A stretch of DNA of 64,000 nucleotides from Formicincola oecophyllae (lineage in GTDB: Bacteria > Pseudomonadota > Alphaproteobacteria > Acetobacterales > Acetobacteraceae), in assembly GCF_006542395.2 (NCBI RefSeq), contig NZ_CP038231.1, positions 930,001 to 994,000 on the forward strand. Direction: 5' to 3'. The stretch's first letter is position 1; every line of letters begins with the position of its first letter. The notes under the pieces were generated by a model, which did no database searches, was not told the origin of the DNA, and saw nothing but the letters and a program-made list of their open reading frames with translations. This document shows positions 17,642 to 59,200 of this stretch, one piece after another. The translations under genes were made by a program, and so were the position numbers.

Positions 17642-18349
17642 TTATGAAGGCAGTGCCTTTGTCGCCCGCAAATGCTCCAGCAAGGGCAGCAGGGGCAATC
17701 CCATAATGCTGTCCTGGTTGCCTTCAATGGAACTGAAAAGCTGCTGCCCCACCCCTTCCACTTTGCAAGCACCAACACAGTAAAGCAGCTCCTGGCCTTC
17801 AACGGCCAGGTAACGTTCAAGCACCTCATCAGAGAAAGAGCGCATGTGCAGACGGGGGGAGTCCACATGATGCCACAGCTGGGTTACGCCACCATGGTCA
17901 GTTGAGGCTTGCTCATAGTGCAAGCAAACCATAGCTGTGCGCAGATGCTGGATCTGCCCCCGCAAAGCGGCAAGCTGTTGGCGCGCTTCACCAAGGGTAG
18001 CTGGCTTATTATAGATGCGCCCGTTCGCTTCCAAAATCTGATCAGCCCCTAAGATGATGCAGCTGCCCAGAGCGCGCCCCGTTTGGCTGGCCCCCTCCTG
18101 AAGGCTGGCAAGGGCAGCACGTGCTTTTGCTTCAGCCAAAGCAGTAGCCATCTGGGACACAGTCATGCCGTTAGCAGCGTAACGCTGGCGCAAGGTCTCT
18201 TCATCCACCTCCACCCTACAAAGCTGGAAAGGCACACCTGCCCGGCGCAGGATCATGCGGCGTGCAGCAGAACCACTGGCCAGGACCAGGGGAATGTTCA
18301 TTGTTAGGAAAACTTCAGTCTGAGCTTCGCTCGCCTTATCTGATGCCAT
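17642..18349 (-). CDS. maf: Maf family nucleotide pyrophosphatase
   Basis: The 235-residue protein belongs to the Maf/YhdE/YceF family, which hydrolyses non-canonical or modified nucleoside triphosphates to monophosphates. Visible motifs are LVLASGSAARRMIL near the N-terminus (usual form S-x-S-P/A-R-R), EVDEET, GADQILEANGRIYNKP and FSDEVLERYL. The frame is open back to 18409, but ATG 18349 is preceded by AAGG at seven bases and gives a normal family length; ATG 18301 is another option. It is the gene immediately left of the origin, transcribed away from it. A second Maf-family gene occurs near 48 kb, so the window carries two paralogues. Confidence 0.85.
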   Translation of the reverse strand: MASDKASEAQTEVFLTMNIPLVLASGSAARRMILRRAGVPFQLCRVEVDEETLRQRYAANGMTVSQMATALAEAKARAALASLQEGASQTGRALGSCIILGADQILEANGRIYNKPATLGEARQQLAALRGQIQHLRTAMVCLHYEQASTDHGGVTQLWHHVDSPRLHMRSFSDEVLERYLAVEGQELLYCVGACKVEGVGQQLFSSIEGNQDSIMGLPLLPLLEHLRATKALPS

Positions 18350-18466
18350 CGTTATACCTTGAATCTGCTTTTTAGAACGAACTGTGCCAACACGACTGAT
18401 AACGCCCATTAGAGATAGAGAGCACGAACAGCTGAAACGCAGTTTTACCCACCCTCACCATCCCAG

Positions 18467-18482
18467 ACCGAATCGATTCGGT
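18467..18482. promoter_or_regulatory. Perfect palindrome with two GANTC sites next to the origin
   Basis: ACCGAATCGATTCGGT is a perfect 16-bp palindrome. It contains GAATC (18470) and GATTC (18475), both GANTC, the CcrM methyltransferase recognition sequence of many alphaproteobacteria. Further GANTC sites follow at 18495 and 18526. Its function is unknown; a role in methylation-dependent origin control is inference. Confidence 0.45.
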
Positions 18483-18574
18483 TCACTCATTTCCGACTCG
18501 CCCTACAGCACCTGACACACCCTGTGATTCAGGCGGTTTGAAAAATATTTTTACCCCTCAAAGAGAGCTCAGCC

Positions 18575-18895
18575 TGTGGATAACCCTGTGGATAACTCAC
18601 CCTATCCTGTGGATAACTCCGTTTTTGCTGTGGATAACTCTGTGGATAACTTTTTCCCATTCAGGCGCCTGTGGATAACTCGGCAAGTTATCCACAGAGT
18701 TATCCACAGGCTGTGGATAACTTTTCATCGGTCTGTGGATAATGTGGATAACATTGCAAAAATGGCTTTTAACCGCCGTTTAAATTATGTCCTTTCTGTG
18801 GATAACTCTGTGGATAACTTTTCAATGGCAAAAGTTATCCACAGGCTGAGCGCCTCCCTACTACTATAAAAAAATAGAATCTTTTTAGATTTGGT
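18575..18895. other. oriC: Candidate chromosomal replication origin (oriC) with 14 perfect DnaA boxes
   Basis: Between 18575 and 18843 there are 14 exact copies of TTATCCACA or its complement. Eleven read TGTGGATAA on the plus strand (18575, 18587, 18608, 18629, 18641, 18670, 18712, 18734, 18743, 18797, 18809) and three read TTATCCACA (18688, 18700, 18835). Start-to-start spacings are often 12 or 21 bases, close to one and two helical turns. An AT-rich stretch at 18861-18895 next to hemE, and another at 18541-18553, could be the unwinding element. The origin lies next to hemE in Caulobacter and relatives, and genes on both sides are transcribed away from this point. No dnaA gene is in the window, which is normal for this group. 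Confidence 0.88.
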
Positions 18896-19035
18896 TGAGC
18901 GACGTTTTCCCCTCGCTTGGCAGGGCCACGGTAATTGGGTTAGGAGGGGATCGTTGTGAAAGCGCTTCAGTGGCCATGACCCCAAGCCTGTTTCTGACAA
19001 ACAGGCTTCCCCACAGTTTTTCCCAAGGTTTGTTC

Positions 19036-20100
19036 ATGAAGGCGCCCTCCCCCCCCTGTGCAGATCCAGCTAACAAAAAACTTCTGGCCACGCTGCAGGG
19101 AAAAGCCCATTGGCCACCACCCCTGTGGCTGATGCGCCAAGCAGGGCGTTACTTGCCAGAATTCAAGGCCATCAGGGCAAAAGCCGATTTCATGACGCGC
19201 TGCCTCACCCCTGATATGGCTGTGGAGCTAACGCTCCAACCCATCAAGCGCTACGGCATGGATGGAGCCATCCTGTTTTCAGACATCCTCATCCTACCTT
19301 GGGCTTTGGGGCAGGATCTTCATTTTGAGGAAGGGCGTGGACCAGTCTTGCCGCCTCTACGCCATGAGGAGGATTTCAGGGCCCTTGACCCAGCACGCGT
19401 GGCTGAGCGCACAGCCCCCGTACGGGAGGCCATCACGCGATTGGCGCGTGAATTGGCCACCACCACCACTACGCTGCTTGGTTTTGCTGGCGCTCCCTTT
19501 ACGGTTAGTTGCTACATGATCGAAGGGGGGGGATCGCGTGATTTCGCTGCTGTCAGGCGCATGATGATCAAGCGCCCTGACCTTTATGCGCAGCTGATAG
19601 AAATGCTGATAAATGCAACCGCTGACATGCTCTCAGAGCAGATCAACGCTGGCGCCCAGGCGGTCATGCTATTTGATTCATGGGCTGGCATTTTACCGCC
19701 TAATGATTTCAGGCGTTGGGTTATAGAACCAACCCGCCGCATCCGTGCCTTGTTGAAGCAGCGTCACCCCACTGTGCCTGTCATTGGCTTTCCGCGGCTT
19801 GGGGGGGTGATGACAGGCGAATACGCCCAAAACACGGGTGTGGATACCGTCAGCCTGGACACCAGCACAGACCCCTTGAAAATCCTGCCCTTGCTCAGCC
19901 CTCACCAAGGGGTGCAGGGCAACCTTGATCCACAATTGCTTCTCAATGGCGGCGCGCCCATGGTGAAGGCTGCCCAGGCTTTGGCTGAAACATTGCGCGG
20001 GCGGTCCCATGTCTTCAACCTGGGTCATGGCGTCTCTCAGTTCACCCCAGTGGAGCATGTAGCTGAATTGGTTGAAGCTGTGCGCAGCCTGAGCGCCTGA
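19036..20100 (+). CDS. hemE: Uroporphyrinogen decarboxylase
   Basis: The 354-residue protein catalyses the four-fold decarboxylation of uroporphyrinogen III to coproporphyrinogen III in haem synthesis in the cytosol. Signature residues are present: LMRQAGRYLPEF at 33-43, DAILFSDIL-like GAILFSDILILPWALG, GFAGAPFTVSCYMIEGG, FDSWAGILP, and NLGHGVSQFTP at the C-terminus. Length fits the family (about 350). The frame is open back to 18895 into the origin, but the conserved protein begins at ATG 19036, preceded by AAGG. It is followed after 22 bases by hemJ, the next oxidative step but one, so the pair is a haem operon. Its location beside oriC is as in other alphaproteobacteria. Confidence 0.95.
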   Translation: MKAPSPPCADPANKKLLATLQGKAHWPPPLWLMRQAGRYLPEFKAIRAKADFMTRCLTPDMAVELTLQPIKRYGMDGAILFSDILILPWALGQDLHFEEGRGPVLPPLRHEEDFRALDPARVAERTAPVREAITRLARELATTTTTLLGFAGAPFTVSCYMIEGGGSRDFAAVRRMMIKRPDLYAQLIEMLINATADMLSEQINAGAQAVMLFDSWAGILPPNDFRRWVIEPTRRIRALLKQRHPTVPVIGFPRLGGVMTGEYAQNTGVDTVSLDTSTDPLKILPLLSPHQGVQGNLDPQLLLNGGAPMVKAAQALAETLRGRSHVFNLGHGVSQFTPVEHVAELVEAVRSLSA

Positions 20101-21320: not shown

Positions 21321-21456
21321 GGTTCCCCCTGCCGGCAACCGGGCATCACATGGCGCCTCGCCCGGGCAGGGTGCCAGATTAACCCTTGTTGGGCATATTT
21401 GAACCATTCATTTTTCCAGTTCAGCCAAAGTGGCTGCTGGCGGCAATTGATTTCAC

Positions 21457-23526
21457 GTGAAGCACGACGGTGCCTTGTCCATGCCCCTCATTCCCCCAGC
21501 ATCCTTCACCAACAAGCCTCACAAAGCTGCCACCCCTTGGGTGGATGGCGCTTATTTGACCGCCCCCCAGAAGCAGCTTAGTGAAGTCCGCTCGCGGGGG
21601 GAGTGGGTGTTTTGGCATCAGAAGAACCCTGGCCAAAATGGCTGCGTGATGGCGCAAAGCCCATCAGGGGCCATCAGAGCCCTGACCCCACCTGAACACG
21701 ATGTGGGAGGCAGCCTACATTATGGTGGTGCTGGGTGGGACGTGCAGGTGGTCCCAGCGGTCAATAGAACCACTTTGCAGAATAATGATGCAGCCTCAGC
21801 CATCATCACTGTGGTTTTCGCAGACCGCCGCCAAGGGGGGCTTTTTGCCCTGCACATTGCTGCAGGCGCAGATAAGGATCTGCCGGCCCCCACTCCCCTT
21901 CTTGAAGCAGCCATGGCCGCCCAGGGGCGTTTTGGTGGAATTTGCTTGGCGCCAGATGCCAAACGCCTGTTCTGCGTGATGGAAACCCCCCACCCCCATG
22001 CACGTTTGGCTGATGATTCATCACTGGTTGAAATCTCTTTGGAAGGGCCAGGTAAGGGACGCCTTGTCCAACGCACTAAGCCAACACACCAAGGCGGGGC
22101 CGATTTCCATTTAACCCCTACCCTTTCCTATGATGGCCAATGGCTGGCGTGGGTGGAATGGGACGCCCCCAACATGCCCTGGACGGCGACACGCCTGTGC
22201 GCCATGGCGCTTTGCGGCCCTGGTGCTGGGGAGAAAACAATCCTTGATGATGGGCAGGAAGGGGGCCACCGTCAGCGCCACAGCTTGATTGAACCCCGCT
22301 TCGCGCCAGATGAGAACACTCTTTACGTTCTCAGTGACCGTTGTGGGTATTGGACCCCCGAATGCCATCACATTCAGGAAGGCCTGTGGCAGCAAAGGTC
22401 ACTGCCAGCAGCCCCTGGCGAGGTTGGTATGCCGCCATGGGTGCTGGGCTATGTTTCCTACCTGCCTTTGGGGCGCGGCAATGTGGTGGCGCGTGTTCTC
22501 AATGAAGGCCAGCCCTCTTGCTGGCTTTTAGAAGCTGGTAAAGTTTGGCGCCCCCTGGAGGCGCCTGGCTTCACGCCTGCCCAAGCCCCCACATTGCTGG
22601 CCGGCGCCGCTGGGCAGCGTCAGGCCCAATGGGCTTGGCTGAATGAGGGCACCAATCAGCCAGTCACATTGCTTAGAGGGCCCTTAGCTGCGCCACACAT
22701 CCTAGCCACTGCTGGGGAACTGCCAGCAGGTTTGACGGCTGATGATGTCGCTACGCCGCGTTGGCTACGTGTTCCAGATGGGCAGGGCAGTTTCATCGGG
22801 GCCCTTTACTGGCCACCCGCCACAGGACCCCATTGCGTGAAGGCGCGTGACCATGGCGCAACCCCGCCCATGGTTGTGCGGGTGCATGGTGGCCCAACCG
22901 CCCAGGCAAGCGGGGCCTTCTCCCCCAAAGTGCAATGGTGGACATGCCGTGGTTTTGCTGTGCTGGATGTCAATTACAGGGGATCGACAGGTTTTGGGCG
23001 CGCTTACCACCAAGCCCTTGAGGGCCGTTGGGGGGAATTGGATGTTGAGGACTGCATTCAAGCTGCGCGCTGGTGCGTGACGCAAGGCTTAGCTGCGGCA
23101 GATGGTTTGTTCATCAGGGGCAGCAGCGCTGGTGGCTTGACTGTGCTGGCAGCGTTGGCGCGCTCCAACCTTTTTAAGGGCGGAACGTCCCTTTACGGCG
23201 TGACGGATATGAGCGCCCTCGCCCAGGACACACACCGTTTTGAGGCACGCTACCTGGATGGCCTTGTGGCCCCTTGGCCAGCGGGACGGGCGCTTTACCA
23301 GGCCCGTTCGCCCCTCTCCTGGCCTGAACGCATCAAGGCGCCTGTTCTGTTCCTGCATGGTGACGCTGACCAGGTTGTGCCCTTGGCGCAGACTGAAACC
23401 ATGCGCAAAGCCTTAGGTTCAGGCCCGATGCATGTCTACCCTGGTGAGGGGCATGGCTTCCGCACCCCTTGGGTTGTGGCCGATTCCATGCAGCGTGAAA
23501 GCGAATTCTACCGTTCGCTGCTTTGA
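21457..23526 (+). CDS. S9 family prolyl oligopeptidase/acylaminoacyl-peptidase-like serine peptidase
   Basis: The 689-residue protein has an N-terminal beta-propeller-like half and a C-terminal alpha/beta hydrolase. The latter shows VVRVHGGPTAQ, FAVLDVNYRGSTGFG, GSSAGGLTVLAAL with the nucleophile Ser, FLHGDADQVVP with the catalytic Asp, and PGEGHGF with the catalytic His. This is the S9C-type layout, acting on short peptides. No signal peptide is evident, so it is probably cytosolic. Start is uncertain: GTG 21457 or ATG 21481, neither with a strong ribosome binding site. Its end overlaps the convergent MATE gene by 19 bases. The physiological substrate is unknown. Confidence 0.85.
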   Translation: MKHDGALSMPLIPPASFTNKPHKAATPWVDGAYLTAPQKQLSEVRSRGEWVFWHQKNPGQNGCVMAQSPSGAIRALTPPEHDVGGSLHYGGAGWDVQVVPAVNRTTLQNNDAASAIITVVFADRRQGGLFALHIAAGADKDLPAPTPLLEAAMAAQGRFGGICLAPDAKRLFCVMETPHPHARLADDSSLVEISLEGPGKGRLVQRTKPTHQGGADFHLTPTLSYDGQWLAWVEWDAPNMPWTATRLCAMALCGPGAGEKTILDDGQEGGHRQRHSLIEPRFAPDENTLYVLSDRCGYWTPECHHIQEGLWQQRSLPAAPGEVGMPPWVLGYVSYLPLGRGNVVARVLNEGQPSCWLLEAGKVWRPLEAPGFTPAQAPTLLAGAAGQRQAQWAWLNEGTNQPVTLLRGPLAAPHILATAGELPAGLTADDVATPRWLRVPDGQGSFIGALYWPPATGPHCVKARDHGATPPMVVRVHGGPTAQASGAFSPKVQWWTCRGFAVLDVNYRGSTGFGRAYHQALEGRWGELDVEDCIQAARWCVTQGLAAADGLFIRGSSAGGLTVLAALARSNLFKGGTSLYGVTDMSALAQDTHRFEARYLDGLVAPWPAGRALYQARSPLSWPERIKAPVLFLHGDADQVVPLAQTETMRKALGSGPMHVYPGEGHGFRTPWVVADSMQRESEFYRSLL

Positions 23527-32508: not shown

Positions 32509-34485
32509 ATGGCACAGGACAACGCCCCAGCCCCTGGCGCTGAAACCAGCACGCAAGCAGCCACCAAGGGCACCCATGCGTTTTCAGCCGAGGTTGGGCG
32601 GCTGCTCGACCTTGTAGTGCATTCGCTGTACTCAGACCGCGAGATTTTCCTGCGTGAGCTGGTGGCCAATGCTGCAGACGCCATGGACAAGCGCCGTTTC
32701 GAAAGCTTGACCGACAAAGCCTTGGCGCTGCCTGCCAAGGCCGCCATCACCTTGACCCCTGATGAAAAAGCCAAAACGCTGACCATCGCCGATGATGGCC
32801 TAGGCATGAGTGCTGAAGAACTAGCCAGCCACCTTGGCACCATAGCTCGTTCAGGCACGCGCGCCTTCAGCGCCAAGCTTGCTGATGATCAAAAGGGGAA
32901 TGCCACGGCAGACAGCCCCAACCTTGTCGGGCAGTTTGGTGTCGGGTTCTACGCTGCTTTCATGGTGGCTGACCGGGTAGAGGTTGTGTCGCGCCGCACT
33001 GGTTCTGAGCAGGCCTTCTCCTGGACATCTGACGGTAAAGGCACTTACAGCATAGCGCCAGCTAAGCGCAGCCAGCCAGGTACCACCATTACCTTGCACA
33101 TGAAGGCTGACGCCACCGACTTCCTCAATCCTGCCCGTGTGGGCGACATCGTTAAGAAATGGGCTGATCACATTTCATGGCCGGTGGAACTGGTGGAGGA
33201 TGTGGACGGCAAGCGCCAGACACGCCCCCTTAATGAGGGGACAGCCCTTTGGGCCCGCCCTAAAGAGGATGTCACGCCTGAGGAATACGCCGAGTTCTAC
33301 CGTCACATCTCAAAGCAGTTCGACACCCCCTACGACATACTCCATTGGCAGGCGGAAGGCACAACGGCCTTCACAGCGCTGCTGTTCCTGCCCAGCATGC
33401 GCCCGTTTGACTTCCTGGACCGCCAGAGCCGCGAAAGCCAGAGCCAGCTTTACGTGCGGCGCATGTTCATCACAGCGGATGCCCAGCTGTTGCCTGCTTG
33501 GCTGCGCTTTGTGCAGGGCGTGGTGGACACAGACGACCTGCCCTTGAACGTTTCACGTGAAATGTTGCAGGCCACCCCTGTTCTGGCGCGCATCCGCAAA
33601 GCTGTGACCCGCCGTGTGGTCAACGAGCTTAAAAAACTTGGCCGCAATGCCCTGGCAAATGGCGGCAAGAATGAGGGTGCAGAGGCATGGCTGGAATTCT
33701 GGGAAAATTTCGGCCTGGTCATCAAGGAAGGGCTTTGGGAAGATGCCCTCCACCGTGCTGACATCGCTGAATTTGCCTTGTTCCGCTCCACCCACAGCAC
33801 ATCTGAAGGGCTTGAGGGGTGGACAACGCTTGCTGGCTACGTTCAGCGCATGAAGTCAGGGCAGGATGCCATCTATTACCTGGTGGGCGACAACCAGGAC
33901 GCTTTGCGCGCCAGCCCTCAGCTGGAAGGATTCAAGGCGCGCGGTGTGGAGGTCCTGCTACTGACTGACCCTGTGGACAGCTTCTGGCCAGAGCGCATGG
34001 GCAGTTACGATAGCAAGCCCTTCCGCAGCATTGCCCACGCCCATGCTGATTTGGAGAGATTCGAAGCCCCTAAGCCAACCGGCGATGCCGCCCCCCTAGG
34101 CAAGTTGCTGCCAGCTCTCACCAAAGCACTGTGTGGGAAGGTCAGCGCCATTCGCGACACAGACCGTTTGACTGACAGCGCTGTGGTGTTGAACCATGAA
34201 GGCACACCTGATTTGGCCATGCAGCGCCTGTTGCGCCGTTCAGGCCAAAATGTTCATGCCACAAGCCCTGTTTTGGAAATCAATCCACGCCATCCCCTCA
34301 TCCAGGCTTTGGCCAAAAAGGTGGAAAGTGGCGCAGATGTGGATGACTACGCTAAGGCCCTGCTTGACCTGGCTTACGTCCAGGAGGGTGATCCTTTGCC
34401 TGATCCTGCCGGTTTCGCGCGTTTGTTAACGGCGCTTTTGGCTCAGGGAATTGATAACACTGCAGGAAAAAACACAGCAGGGTGA
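32509..34485 (+). CDS. htpG: Molecular chaperone HtpG (Hsp90)
   Basis: The 658-residue protein is a complete bacterial Hsp90: N-terminal GHKL ATPase with [31 protein letters not shown] and [18 protein letters not shown], then the middle domain with [21 protein letters not shown] (the catalytic-loop Arg region is downstream), and the C-terminal dimerisation domain. It folds client proteins in the cytosol using ATP. ATG 32509 is selected over the open frame starting at 32242 because AAGAGAG lies just upstream and Hsp90 homology begins after it. The gene is divergent from nhaA. Confidence 0.95.
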
Positions 34486-54260: not shown

Positions 54261-54332
54261 GGACAATACCCGCCCCTGAAAAGCTGTGGGGAACTTGCGT
54301 GACGCAACGCCTGGCCTGTGGTTGGCTGAAAG

Positions 54333-54519
54333 TTATCCACAGAGTTATCCACAGCCCTGTTTTAAAGTTTGGTGAAGGCGCCGCTTTAAGGCGCGCGCGG
54401 AAAATCGCCCCAAAAATGGCCGTAAAGCGCCCTTTTTGAATTTATGTCTAGGATTGGCCCCCTCAATCATTCCCTGAAACAGGACTGGGGAAGTGGCTTT
54501 TCATCCACAGTTTTCCACA
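54333..54519. other. Secondary DnaA-box cluster
   Basis: Two perfect TTATCCACA boxes (54333-54341 and 54345-54353, start-to-start 12) and two one-mismatch boxes, TCATCCACA (54501) and TTTTCCACA (54511), lie in the 315-base gap between two convergent genes. The 24 bases 54331-54354 are identical to 18686-18709 in the candidate oriC. The gap contains no gene I can support. A DnaA-titration or regulatory role is inference. Confidence 0.7.
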
Positions 54520-56201: not shown

Positions 56202-59200
56202 TTAAACCTCATTTCCAGAGGCAGGCGTGGGGAGCTGGTCAGCCTCCCCTCCTCCCATGGGGTCATGGTGTGGCGGGCCTTTGCGCTGTGCACGTTTTTC
56301 CAGCCAATTGTCCAGATGGCATGAAAGGACAGGCAGGATGAACAGGGTGAGGAGGGTTGCAATACCCAATCCCCCTACCACCACAGTAGCCAGGCCCCGC
56401 TGCACATTGGTGCCAATGCCTGTTGCCATGGCAGCCGGCAGCATGCCTACCGTGGCCACGGTGGCGGTGGTCAGCACAGGTCTAAGGCGCTCAGTGGCCC
56501 CTAGCAAAGTGGCGCGTTCCAGCGCATGCCCCGCCAAACGGTGCTTGCCAATGCTGGAAAGCATGATGATGCCGTTTTGGATGGCCACCCCAAAAAGGGC
56601 GACAAACCCCACCACAGTGGCGATGTTGAGGGTCTCAGCACGGAAATGGAGGGCTATGAGGCCACCCAGCGCCGCCAAGGGCACGCACCCCAGGATGAGC
56701 AACGCATTGGCCGCTGACCGGAACTCCATCCAAAGCATGCCGAACATCACGGCAAAAACTACCGCTAACGCCATGACGAGGGTTTTTTGGGCGTGTTCCT
56801 CCTGTTGGAAAGTGCCTGCCCACTCAAGGTGGTAGGTTTTGGGGTTGTAGTGGACTTCCTTGGCGATTTCAGCGCGTGCCGCCTCCACGAACTGGGACAT
56901 GGGCGTTGAACTGGCCACTTGAATGGTGATTTGGCGCTCCCCATTCTCATGGGCGATGACGCTTTCGCCCATGCCCAGGCGCACATCAGCCACGCGTCCC
57001 AGGGGAATGGCCCGGTCAGGCGCAGTCAGGATGGGGAAGGCGCGCAAACGCACCAAATTGGCACGGTCTTCTTCAGGCAGGCGCAAAGTGGCGTTGTAAA
57101 TGCGGTTGCCGTCATAGATCTGGGTGATGGGGCCGCCACCCACCGCATAGGTGATGACGTCTGAAATAGTGCTGATGTCAAGGCCGTAGCGTGCCGCTTT
57201 GCGCCGGTCGGGGGTAATTTTGATCTGGGGTATGCGCGGCTCTTGGTAAATGTTGGCTTCCGTGCAGCCAGGCACTTTCCAAAGGGCATTGACGATCTGC
57301 TGGCCAACCTTACGCAGGCCAGTGAAGTCATCGCCGTAGAGGCGCAGCACCAGGGGGCTGTGGGCGCCAGCCATCATATCATCGATGGAGTCGCGGATGG
57401 GCTGGGTGATTTCAAAGGTGATGCCAGGGATCTGCGCCAGCTTCTCATGCATGCGGGCCACAAGCATCTCTTTGCTCTCCCCTGCGGGCCATTCGCTGTA
57501 ATCGTGCAGCCCCACGGGCATCTCAACGTGGGATGGCGTCCAGGGGTCCGTCCCTTCGTCAGAGCGCCCCAGCTGGGAAAGGGCGTAAGTGACCTCCGGA
57601 AAGGACGTGATGGTGCGCCTGATGGTGTTGGCCATGTTCTGCGCCTGTTCAAGCGCGATGCCTGACGGCATCTCGATTTGCAGCCACAGGGCGCCTTCAT
57701 CGATGTCCGGCATGAACTCCTTGCCTGTGTGCGAACCGATGATAACCACAGCAGCCAGGGCGGCAAGGCTGCCCCCATAGACCGGCCAAGGGTGGGCTAT
57801 CAGGCGCGCAAGGAGCTTTTCATAGCCTTTCTGCAAAGCAGTGATGAGGGGATTGTCCCATATATGGCATGGCTTCCTGACAGCCGCGTAAGTCAGGGCC
57901 GGCGTGACGGCCAGCGCGCACAGCAACGCCCCGAACAGCGCGAAGGAGACCGTCCAGGCCATGGGGCGCAGCAGCTTGCCCTCAATGCTTTCGAAAGCGA
58001 AGAGGGGGCTATAGGCGATGATGATGATGCATGTTGCGGTGAAAATGGCCTTGCCGGCCTTCTGGGTGGCGTTGAGGACATGCTCAGCGCTGAGGACGCC
58101 TTCAGGCTGCTCCTCGCGCAGGCGCAGGATGACCTCAGCCACCACGATGGCGCCATCAACAATGACGCCGAAGTCAATGGCGCCAAGGCTGAACAGGTTG
58201 GCGGGCATCCCCAACAGCCGCATGAGAACGAAGGCGATAGAAAGCGCGAAGGGGATGGTCAGCGCCGTGACGGCTGCGCAGCGCCAGGAGCCTAGGAAAA
58301 ACGTCAGGATGACCATGACCAGGATAACGCCTGCCGTCATGGTCTCCCCCACTTTGTCCACCGTGGCGTGCACCAGCTGGTCACGGTCAATGTAGGGGAC
58401 GATGCGCGCATGGAAAGGCTTCAGGCGTTCTTGCAGTTCGTCAACAGCGTCATGAAGGCCTTTGAGCACCACAGAAGGGTTGGCGCCGCGCAGCATGGTC
58501 ACGATGCCCTCAACCGTGTCCGGATTGCTGTTTTTGCCCACAATGCCTTCACGCACCTGGTGGCCGAAGGATATGGTGCCCAAGTCACTGAGGAAAACGG
58601 GGTTGCCGTTCTGCTGGCCCACAACGATGTTGGCCATGTCTTGCAGGGAGTTGATCTTGCCAGCCCCCCTGATGATGTAGGATTGCTCCCCCCTGCTGAC
58701 GCGCCCGCCGCCAGCGTCCGTGTTGGCGTTCTTGATGGCCCCCATGACCGTTTCGAGGGAAATGCCATAAGCTGTCAGCATGGAGGGGTTGAGGGTTAGC
58801 TGGTACTCTTTCGTCAGCCCCCCGAAATTGTCCACGCTGACGATGCCAGCCACCCGCTGCAGCCGCGGGATAACAACCCACTGGTTGAGGTCGGAAAGCT
58901 GCATGAGGTTCTGGACATCGCTTGCAATCGTGTAACGGTAGATCTCCCCGCTGGGGCCTGATATCGGCCCAAGTTCAGGGTGGATGCCATCTGGCAGGTC
59001 AAGCGTTGCCAACTGTGACAGGACCTGCTGGCGCGCGAAGAACACGTTCGTGCCGTCCTTGAACACCAGCGTGATGAGCGATAGCCCGAACGTACTGCTG
59101 GAGCGGCTTTCAACCACATCAGGCACGGCAGCCAGGGCGCGCTCCACCGGAACGGTGACCTGCTGCTCCATTTCCTCAGCGGCTTCACCAGGGATTTGCG

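Follow-up and report, generated by a model that had tools for sequence, protein, structure and literature searches.

Fourteen consensus DnaA boxes between maf and hemE in a probable chromosomal origin of Formicincola oecophyllae

Among described origins, Cori of Caulobacter crescentus holds DnaA boxes, the Caulobacter CtrA motif TTAA-N7-TTAA and an AT-rich stretch within one intergenic region beside hemE, and the origins of Caulobacter and Rickettsia are described in a hemE/COG1806 setting (PMC1914354). The rules given for the basal unwinding system (BUS) are a DnaA box, then a spacer no longer than 16, then three or more DnaA-trios with a middle A, 3'-GAT-5' being the commonest trio (PMC8287927). 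Published origins are credited with 5 to 19 DnaA boxes (PMC4285127). Analysis of a 64,000-nucleotide stretch of Formicincola oecophyllae DNA (the window) revealed a locus that likewise lies beside hemE and combines DnaA boxes, a TTAA-N7-TTAA match and an AT-rich stretch in one intergenic region. Its make-up differs from that of Cori: against five DnaA boxes and five CtrA sites there, it carries 14 copies of TTATCCACA and one CtrA-type site, and the strong box of Cori is TGATCCACA rather than TTATCCACA (PMC1914354, PMC4285127). Moreover, where COG1806 stands beside Cori, maf stands here. We conclude that the maf-hemE region is very probably the chromosomal oriC, in which the 14-box array would act as a DnaA platform, with DnaA loading onto trios and opening the AT-rich stretch. 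The array is best described as a lineage-specific oriC variant, ordinary in kind and unusual in make-up.

The DnaA-box array and its setting

Exact matching located 14 copies of TTATCCACA within the 269 bases from 18575 to 18843, 11 on the minus strand (starting at 18575, 18587, 18608, 18629, 18641, 18670, 18712, 18734, 18743, 18797 and 18809) and three on the plus strand (18688, 18700 and 18835), which bears out the count and orientations given in the earlier note. The start-to-start spacings are 12, 21, 21, 12, 29, 18, 12, 12, 22, 9, 54, 12 and 26, and they agree with the run of 12, 21, 21, 12 that had been pointed out in the left part. Boxes occupy 47% of the array. No box with one or two mismatches was found inside it, and across the maf-hemE intergenic stretch (18302-19035) the 14 exact boxes are joined by two two-mismatch boxes, both outside the array, with no one-mismatch box found. 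G+C content is 41.6% in the array as compared with 45.9% in the whole intergenic region and 58.9% in the window. Helical phasing is shared by the 11 minus-strand boxes: at a period of 10.5 bp R is 0.84, with p = 0.0006 by 5000 random placements and p = 0.0048 with any period from 8 to 14 allowed. Their positions are, however, not independent, since several of the 12-bp doublets derive from a single copied module. Over the whole set of 14 boxes R was 0.61, a descriptive value.

The array lies between a maf-family gene (17642-18301, minus strand, its start placed at the Maf motif MNIPLVLASGS) and hemE, encoding uroporphyrinogen decarboxylase (19036-20100, plus strand, its start inferred from where homologues begin). 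The two genes diverge, and both the position beside hemE and the divergent orientation claimed earlier are hereby confirmed. The four best named hemE matches come from Acetobacteraceae and show 60-65% identity, in a comparison set from which very near records may be left out; the genomes searched included none of the same genus. Four distant relative loci were chosen for the position of maf, which is separated from hemE by more than 1.1 kb. In all four, a COG1806-type frame stands between the origin region and maf, and the one frame tested of the four matched Pfam PF03618; this arrangement recalls the Caulobacter/Rickettsia origin setting. COG1806 was not found on the far side of the array in the present genome, where maf stands.

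Four doublets with a 12-bp period recur in the array as versions of the 23-mer GTTATCCACAGAGTTATCCACAG: three exact copies at 18628-18650 (minus), 18687-18709 (plus, inverted) and 18796-18818 (minus), and one with a single mismatch at 18574-18596 (minus). An outlying exact copy of this module lies 36 kb from the array at 54332-54354 (plus). These copies, four within the array and one outside it, are what slippage or conversion of a box doublet would leave behind if it had enlarged the array with no functional gain. We consider such neutral growth unlikely: the 14 nine-mers are perfect without exception, in contrast to the many spacers and flanks that vary, and neutral copies, unless very recent, would have decayed in box and spacer alike.

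Genome-wide (1.96 Mb, three contigs), there are 29 exact TTATCCACA boxes, 15 of them outside the array, and in the window boxes with up to one mismatch number 29 against 7.26 expected, a count reached in 0 of 100 shuffles. A genome-wide search for exact boxes found the array once and no second array anywhere, so that recurrence of the same array at many loci, named earlier as a sign against oriC, is not what the genome holds. The only other close pair of exact boxes in the genome starts at 54333 and 54345. Together with one-mismatch boxes at 54501 and 54511, this doublet copy makes up a small second cluster (54332-54519) between convergent genes for a histidine phosphatase and an outer-membrane efflux protein, which is possibly a DnaA sink.

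Exact boxes are nearly absent from this locus in the relatives compared. Of 57 relatives, 46 have no exact box in the 500 bases before hemE, 11 have one and none has more; these are 57 of 58 loci (one with fewer than 500 bases upstream was left out), and the 58 are the best hemE matches for which loci were given, not an even sample. A second set of named loci (78 of 80) gave the same picture, with 0 exact boxes in 67 and 1 in 11. Allowing up to one mismatch, the 57 relatives carry 0-4 boxes in these 500 bases and none has an array. The earlier statement that other origins have far fewer perfect boxes holds for the relatives compared (0-1 exact), but the number of boxes as such falls within the published 5-19. 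What is surprising is the quality of the boxes, every one of which is consensus, and not their number. We found no prior description of this array in the open-access literature searched, which yielded no paper on oriC and DnaA boxes in Acetobacteraceae.

Two of 397 genomes of the family, this one and G158, contain three closely spaced exact boxes in tandem, and so do 3 of 385 genomes of a class sample, namely this one, G588 (with a 15-bp tandem repeat) and G628; the pattern undercounts other layouts because it requires same-strand triples. G628 (0.8 Mb) holds nine exact boxes within about 180 bp of intergenic DNA (locus L215, contig C6 around 59026-59143). This alphaproteobacterial locus is like the array in its dense exact boxes and unlike it in its flanks, glmU and fabI as read by eye, in place of hemE.

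In G158 the tandem boxes are found on another contig, next to iteron-like repeats and to what was read by eye as a plasmid initiator frame, and some phages contain short sequences similar to the array; both observations could speak for a remnant of an inserted plasmid or phage origin. We hold this to be highly improbable and rejected it on blastn results, in which plasmids yielded one record covering 10% of the array and, among the phage matches listed (the best 20 of 33), none reached 80% and the top one covered 32%. Moreover, maf faces hemE in many relatives too. Several of the phages listed, for example DT57C, HdH2 and ZK1, contain short array-like stretches, perhaps clustered DnaA boxes.

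The probable unwinding region

The right-most box of the array (18835-18843, plus strand, exact) is the DnaA box proximal to the putative unwinding element and points at a trio repeat. The repeat, CTACTACTA, reads as three DnaA-trios (3'-GAT-5' on the lower strand) at 18858-18866 (plus), 14 bp past the box, and is the single match in the window, with 0.01 expected. It begins an AT-rich stretch (18858-18899) that is by its composition the probable unwinding element; the 40-base window from 18860 is 78% A+T, more than any other window scanned in the maf-hemE interval. Box, 14-bp spacer and three trios are thus all present in order at 18835-18866; published spacers peak at 10-13, somewhat shorter than the one here (PMC8287927). 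The arrangement is like the BUS of Bacillus subtilis in its DnaA box, spacer, at least three DnaA-trios and opening element (PMC8287927), and differs from it in that a tandem box pair lies by the trios there and one box here, at the end of a 14-box array.

To what extent this arrangement is kept in the family was examined in 58 relative loci. In 27 of them the roughly 260 bases preceding hemE contain a plus-strand box with no more than one mismatch; such a near-consensus plus box was absent from the searched stretch in the other 31. The 40 bases after the box in the 27 relatives were compared with two sets of 2000 control stretches. CTA[CT] was present in 18 of 27 as against 10% and 13% of controls, and was absent in nine, among them the relative G085. 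Pyrimidines made up 69% of these bases in the relatives, 50% and 48% in the controls, and 50% here. The exact CTACTACTA run was found in none of the 27, and the lenient trio rule from the literature (three NAN on the lower strand) held in 6 of 27 relatives versus 13% and 9% of controls. Given CTA[CT] in 18 and CTACTACTA in 0 of the 27, a box followed by a CTA-type sequence looks to be kept in the family, with the clean three-trio run found only here. The arrangement in relatives is partly similar and lends partial support. The controls both strengthen the comparison (CTA[CT]) and weaken it (no exact run, and a lenient rule that relatives obey little more often than controls). For a BUS, the presence of CTACTACTA argues more strongly than agreement with the lenient rule, which 9-13% of control stretches also show.

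These features suggest a course of events in which DnaA would cover the phased array as a standing platform and would be loaded from the right-most box across the 14-bp spacer onto CTACTACTA. DnaA on the trios would then open the adjacent AT-rich stretch, where the helicase would be loaded. The other boxes may have been gained in this lineage, partly by copying of the 12-bp-period doublet.

A different division of labour would have the origin proper consist of the box at 18835, the trios and the AT-rich end, with most of the array serving as a DnaA sink, in the manner of datA- or incC-like titration, which would delay re-initiation once the origin had been duplicated. This is a real possibility, though a less probable one, and its likelihood overlaps with that of the platform, because the oriC assignment is kept and only the role of the left boxes is contested. 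The relatives speak for it: with 0-4 near-consensus boxes and no array at 57 loci, an array appears needless for a working origin in the family. The doublet copy 36 kb away also favors titration, as does the proposal that datA-like sequences may lie within some origins (PMC6727663). On the other side, helical phasing and the adjacency of array and trios are rather what one would expect of a built complex than of a passive sink, neither being decisive, and the position of the array argues against a pure datA, a box cluster that promotes hydrolysis of DnaA-ATP at a distance from the origin. We retain the platform as the preferred account of the array.

Chromosomal position

GC skew was determined in a total of 46 stretches (368 kb). 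Eight of these came from the window, and the 38 others sampled about 16% of the main contig. When two breaks were fitted, the best solution placed the change from negative to positive skew between the stretch centres 950 and 958 kb, the array being at 948.6 kb, and the opposite change between the centres 1754 and 1804 kb. Negative skew was found in 19 of 21 stretches left of the array and positive skew in 17 of 21 to its right, up to 1.76 Mb; the signal, drawn from sampled stretches, is weak and noisy. Within the window, the cumulative skew is lowest at 22128. The earlier note had named a skew minimum elsewhere as evidence against oriC; the sampled minimum, noisy as it is, falls at this locus, and the one within the window lies 3.3 kb right of the array. 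In G085, which we took as the nearest relative because its maf matched best (55%), hemE is at 902 kb, and the skew flips between a stretch that ends at 904 kb and one that starts at 1000 kb.

A parB gene lies 24 kb left of the array, with a ParA-like frame, read by eye, at the same locus. Two parS-like sequences lie right of the array: TTTCACGTGAAG at 21451-21462, a near match to the core at a distance of 2.6 kb, and TTTCACGTGAAA at 33551-33562, the only exact copy in the genome, at 14.7 kb. Searching with the 12-base core gave 6 places versus 2 in the control, and the 16-base pattern gave 7 places, all with three mismatches, while its reversed control gave more (10), so that the core search alone favors parS. 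The polarity motif GGGNAGGG occurs 477 times forward and 483 times in reverse genome-wide, is too sparse within the sampled stretches and yielded no usable polarity.

The linearised contig opens with the gene for DnaA, behind which comes a frame that by eye reads as dnaN. This places dnaA 0.95 Mb away from the array, with the inferred terminus at a distance of about 0.17 Mb. It has been published that dnaA does not stay close to the origin in Rhodospirillales (PMC8116508). Among 21 contig starts of relatives that were read, seven carry dnaA, and in the six dnaA-start relatives with a listed hemE position, hemE lies at 42-55% of the contig. If the contigs are whole circles, dnaA lies roughly opposite hemE here and in G085, G045, G131, G265, G405 and G230. 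The DnaA frame itself comprises 644 residues, about 150 of them before the part that aligns with relatives; this N-terminal extension may be real, as the ATG is immediately preceded by a stop and has AGGGAGG seven bases ahead of it.

Being placed between two divergent genes, the array might also be mainly a DnaA-dependent regulator of hemE and/or maf transcription. The skew, parB and trio evidence points to an origin instead, and the maf-hemE region contains one weak sigma-70-like match with 0.6 expected, on which the promoter reading was rejected; 14 boxes would also exceed the apparent need of a promoter. We regard a mainly regulatory role as very improbable. The assignment to oriC, already called probable in the earlier note, is supported at the sequence level by the sampled skew switch, parB and the parS-like cores, the divergent maf/hemE locus, and the order of box, trios and A+T.

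Possible control of initiation and comparison with known origins

The CtrA-type site TTAA-N7-TTAA (18769-18783, plus strand) lies in the largest gap of the array. A search for exact matches found no further such site in the array region and this single one in the 64-kb window, with 0.10 expected. The motif occurs upstream of hemE in 2 of 58 relative loci, so the site is not general. A search of the maf-hemE intergenic region with the IHF consensus gave no match.

The CtrA-like protein of this genome has NF045991 as its best NCBIfam match, at 268.7 bits against a cut-off of 350. Alignment places Ala at the column of its receiver that holds the phosphorylated Asp in others, and Leu in place of the usual Lys. 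This regulator with an apparently dead receiver is encoded in the region C1:1327360-1327584 (locus L137). Of 28 relatives searched, two gave no match and one (G115) a weak match that was left unaligned; in the 25 aligned, the phospho-Asp column, read by eye, holds Glu in 17, Asp in 6 and Ala in 1, and is missing in 1. Glu at the CtrA-like phosphorylation site may thus be common in this part of the family.

Because no imperfect box was found in the array, its filling should, by analogy with Escherichia coli, be largely insensitive to the nucleotide that DnaA carries. Both nucleotide forms of DnaA should fill it, timing would be set elsewhere, and the origin may be DnaA-saturated or cooperatively loaded, as the earlier note suggested. 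Timing could then depend on unwinding or on a protein that blocks initiation, for example a CtrA-like protein bound at 18769-18783. We tentatively suggest, as a reading that is more doubtful than not, an origin without sites reserved for DnaA-ATP, in which control is exerted at the trios or by a CtrA-like protein whose receiver lacks the phosphorylation residue, and with dnaA near the inferred terminus. If true, initiation would be uncoupled from the usual DnaA-ATP switch. An all-consensus natural origin among relatives nearly without exact boxes would offer a ready test of whether timing needs weak sites and of what replaces them.

The Escherichia coli oriC uses the same high-affinity nonamer as the array and differs from it in mixing 3 strong with 8 weak sites (PMC6727663). 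Weak sites that prefer DnaA-ATP couple initiation there to the DnaA-ATP level and are thought to set its timing. In the synthetic oriC-allADP, whose weak sites were designed not to discriminate, DnaA-ADP can open the origin, and over-initiation results (PMC6727663). Judged by its boxes, the array appears to resemble oriC-allADP in being without an evident DnaA-ATP-only site. In its many boxes it is like the oriC of Streptomyces coelicolor, for which 19 are reported (PMC4285127); the consensus there is TTGTCCACA, and Streptomyces origins extend over about 950 bp as compared with the 269 bp of the present array.
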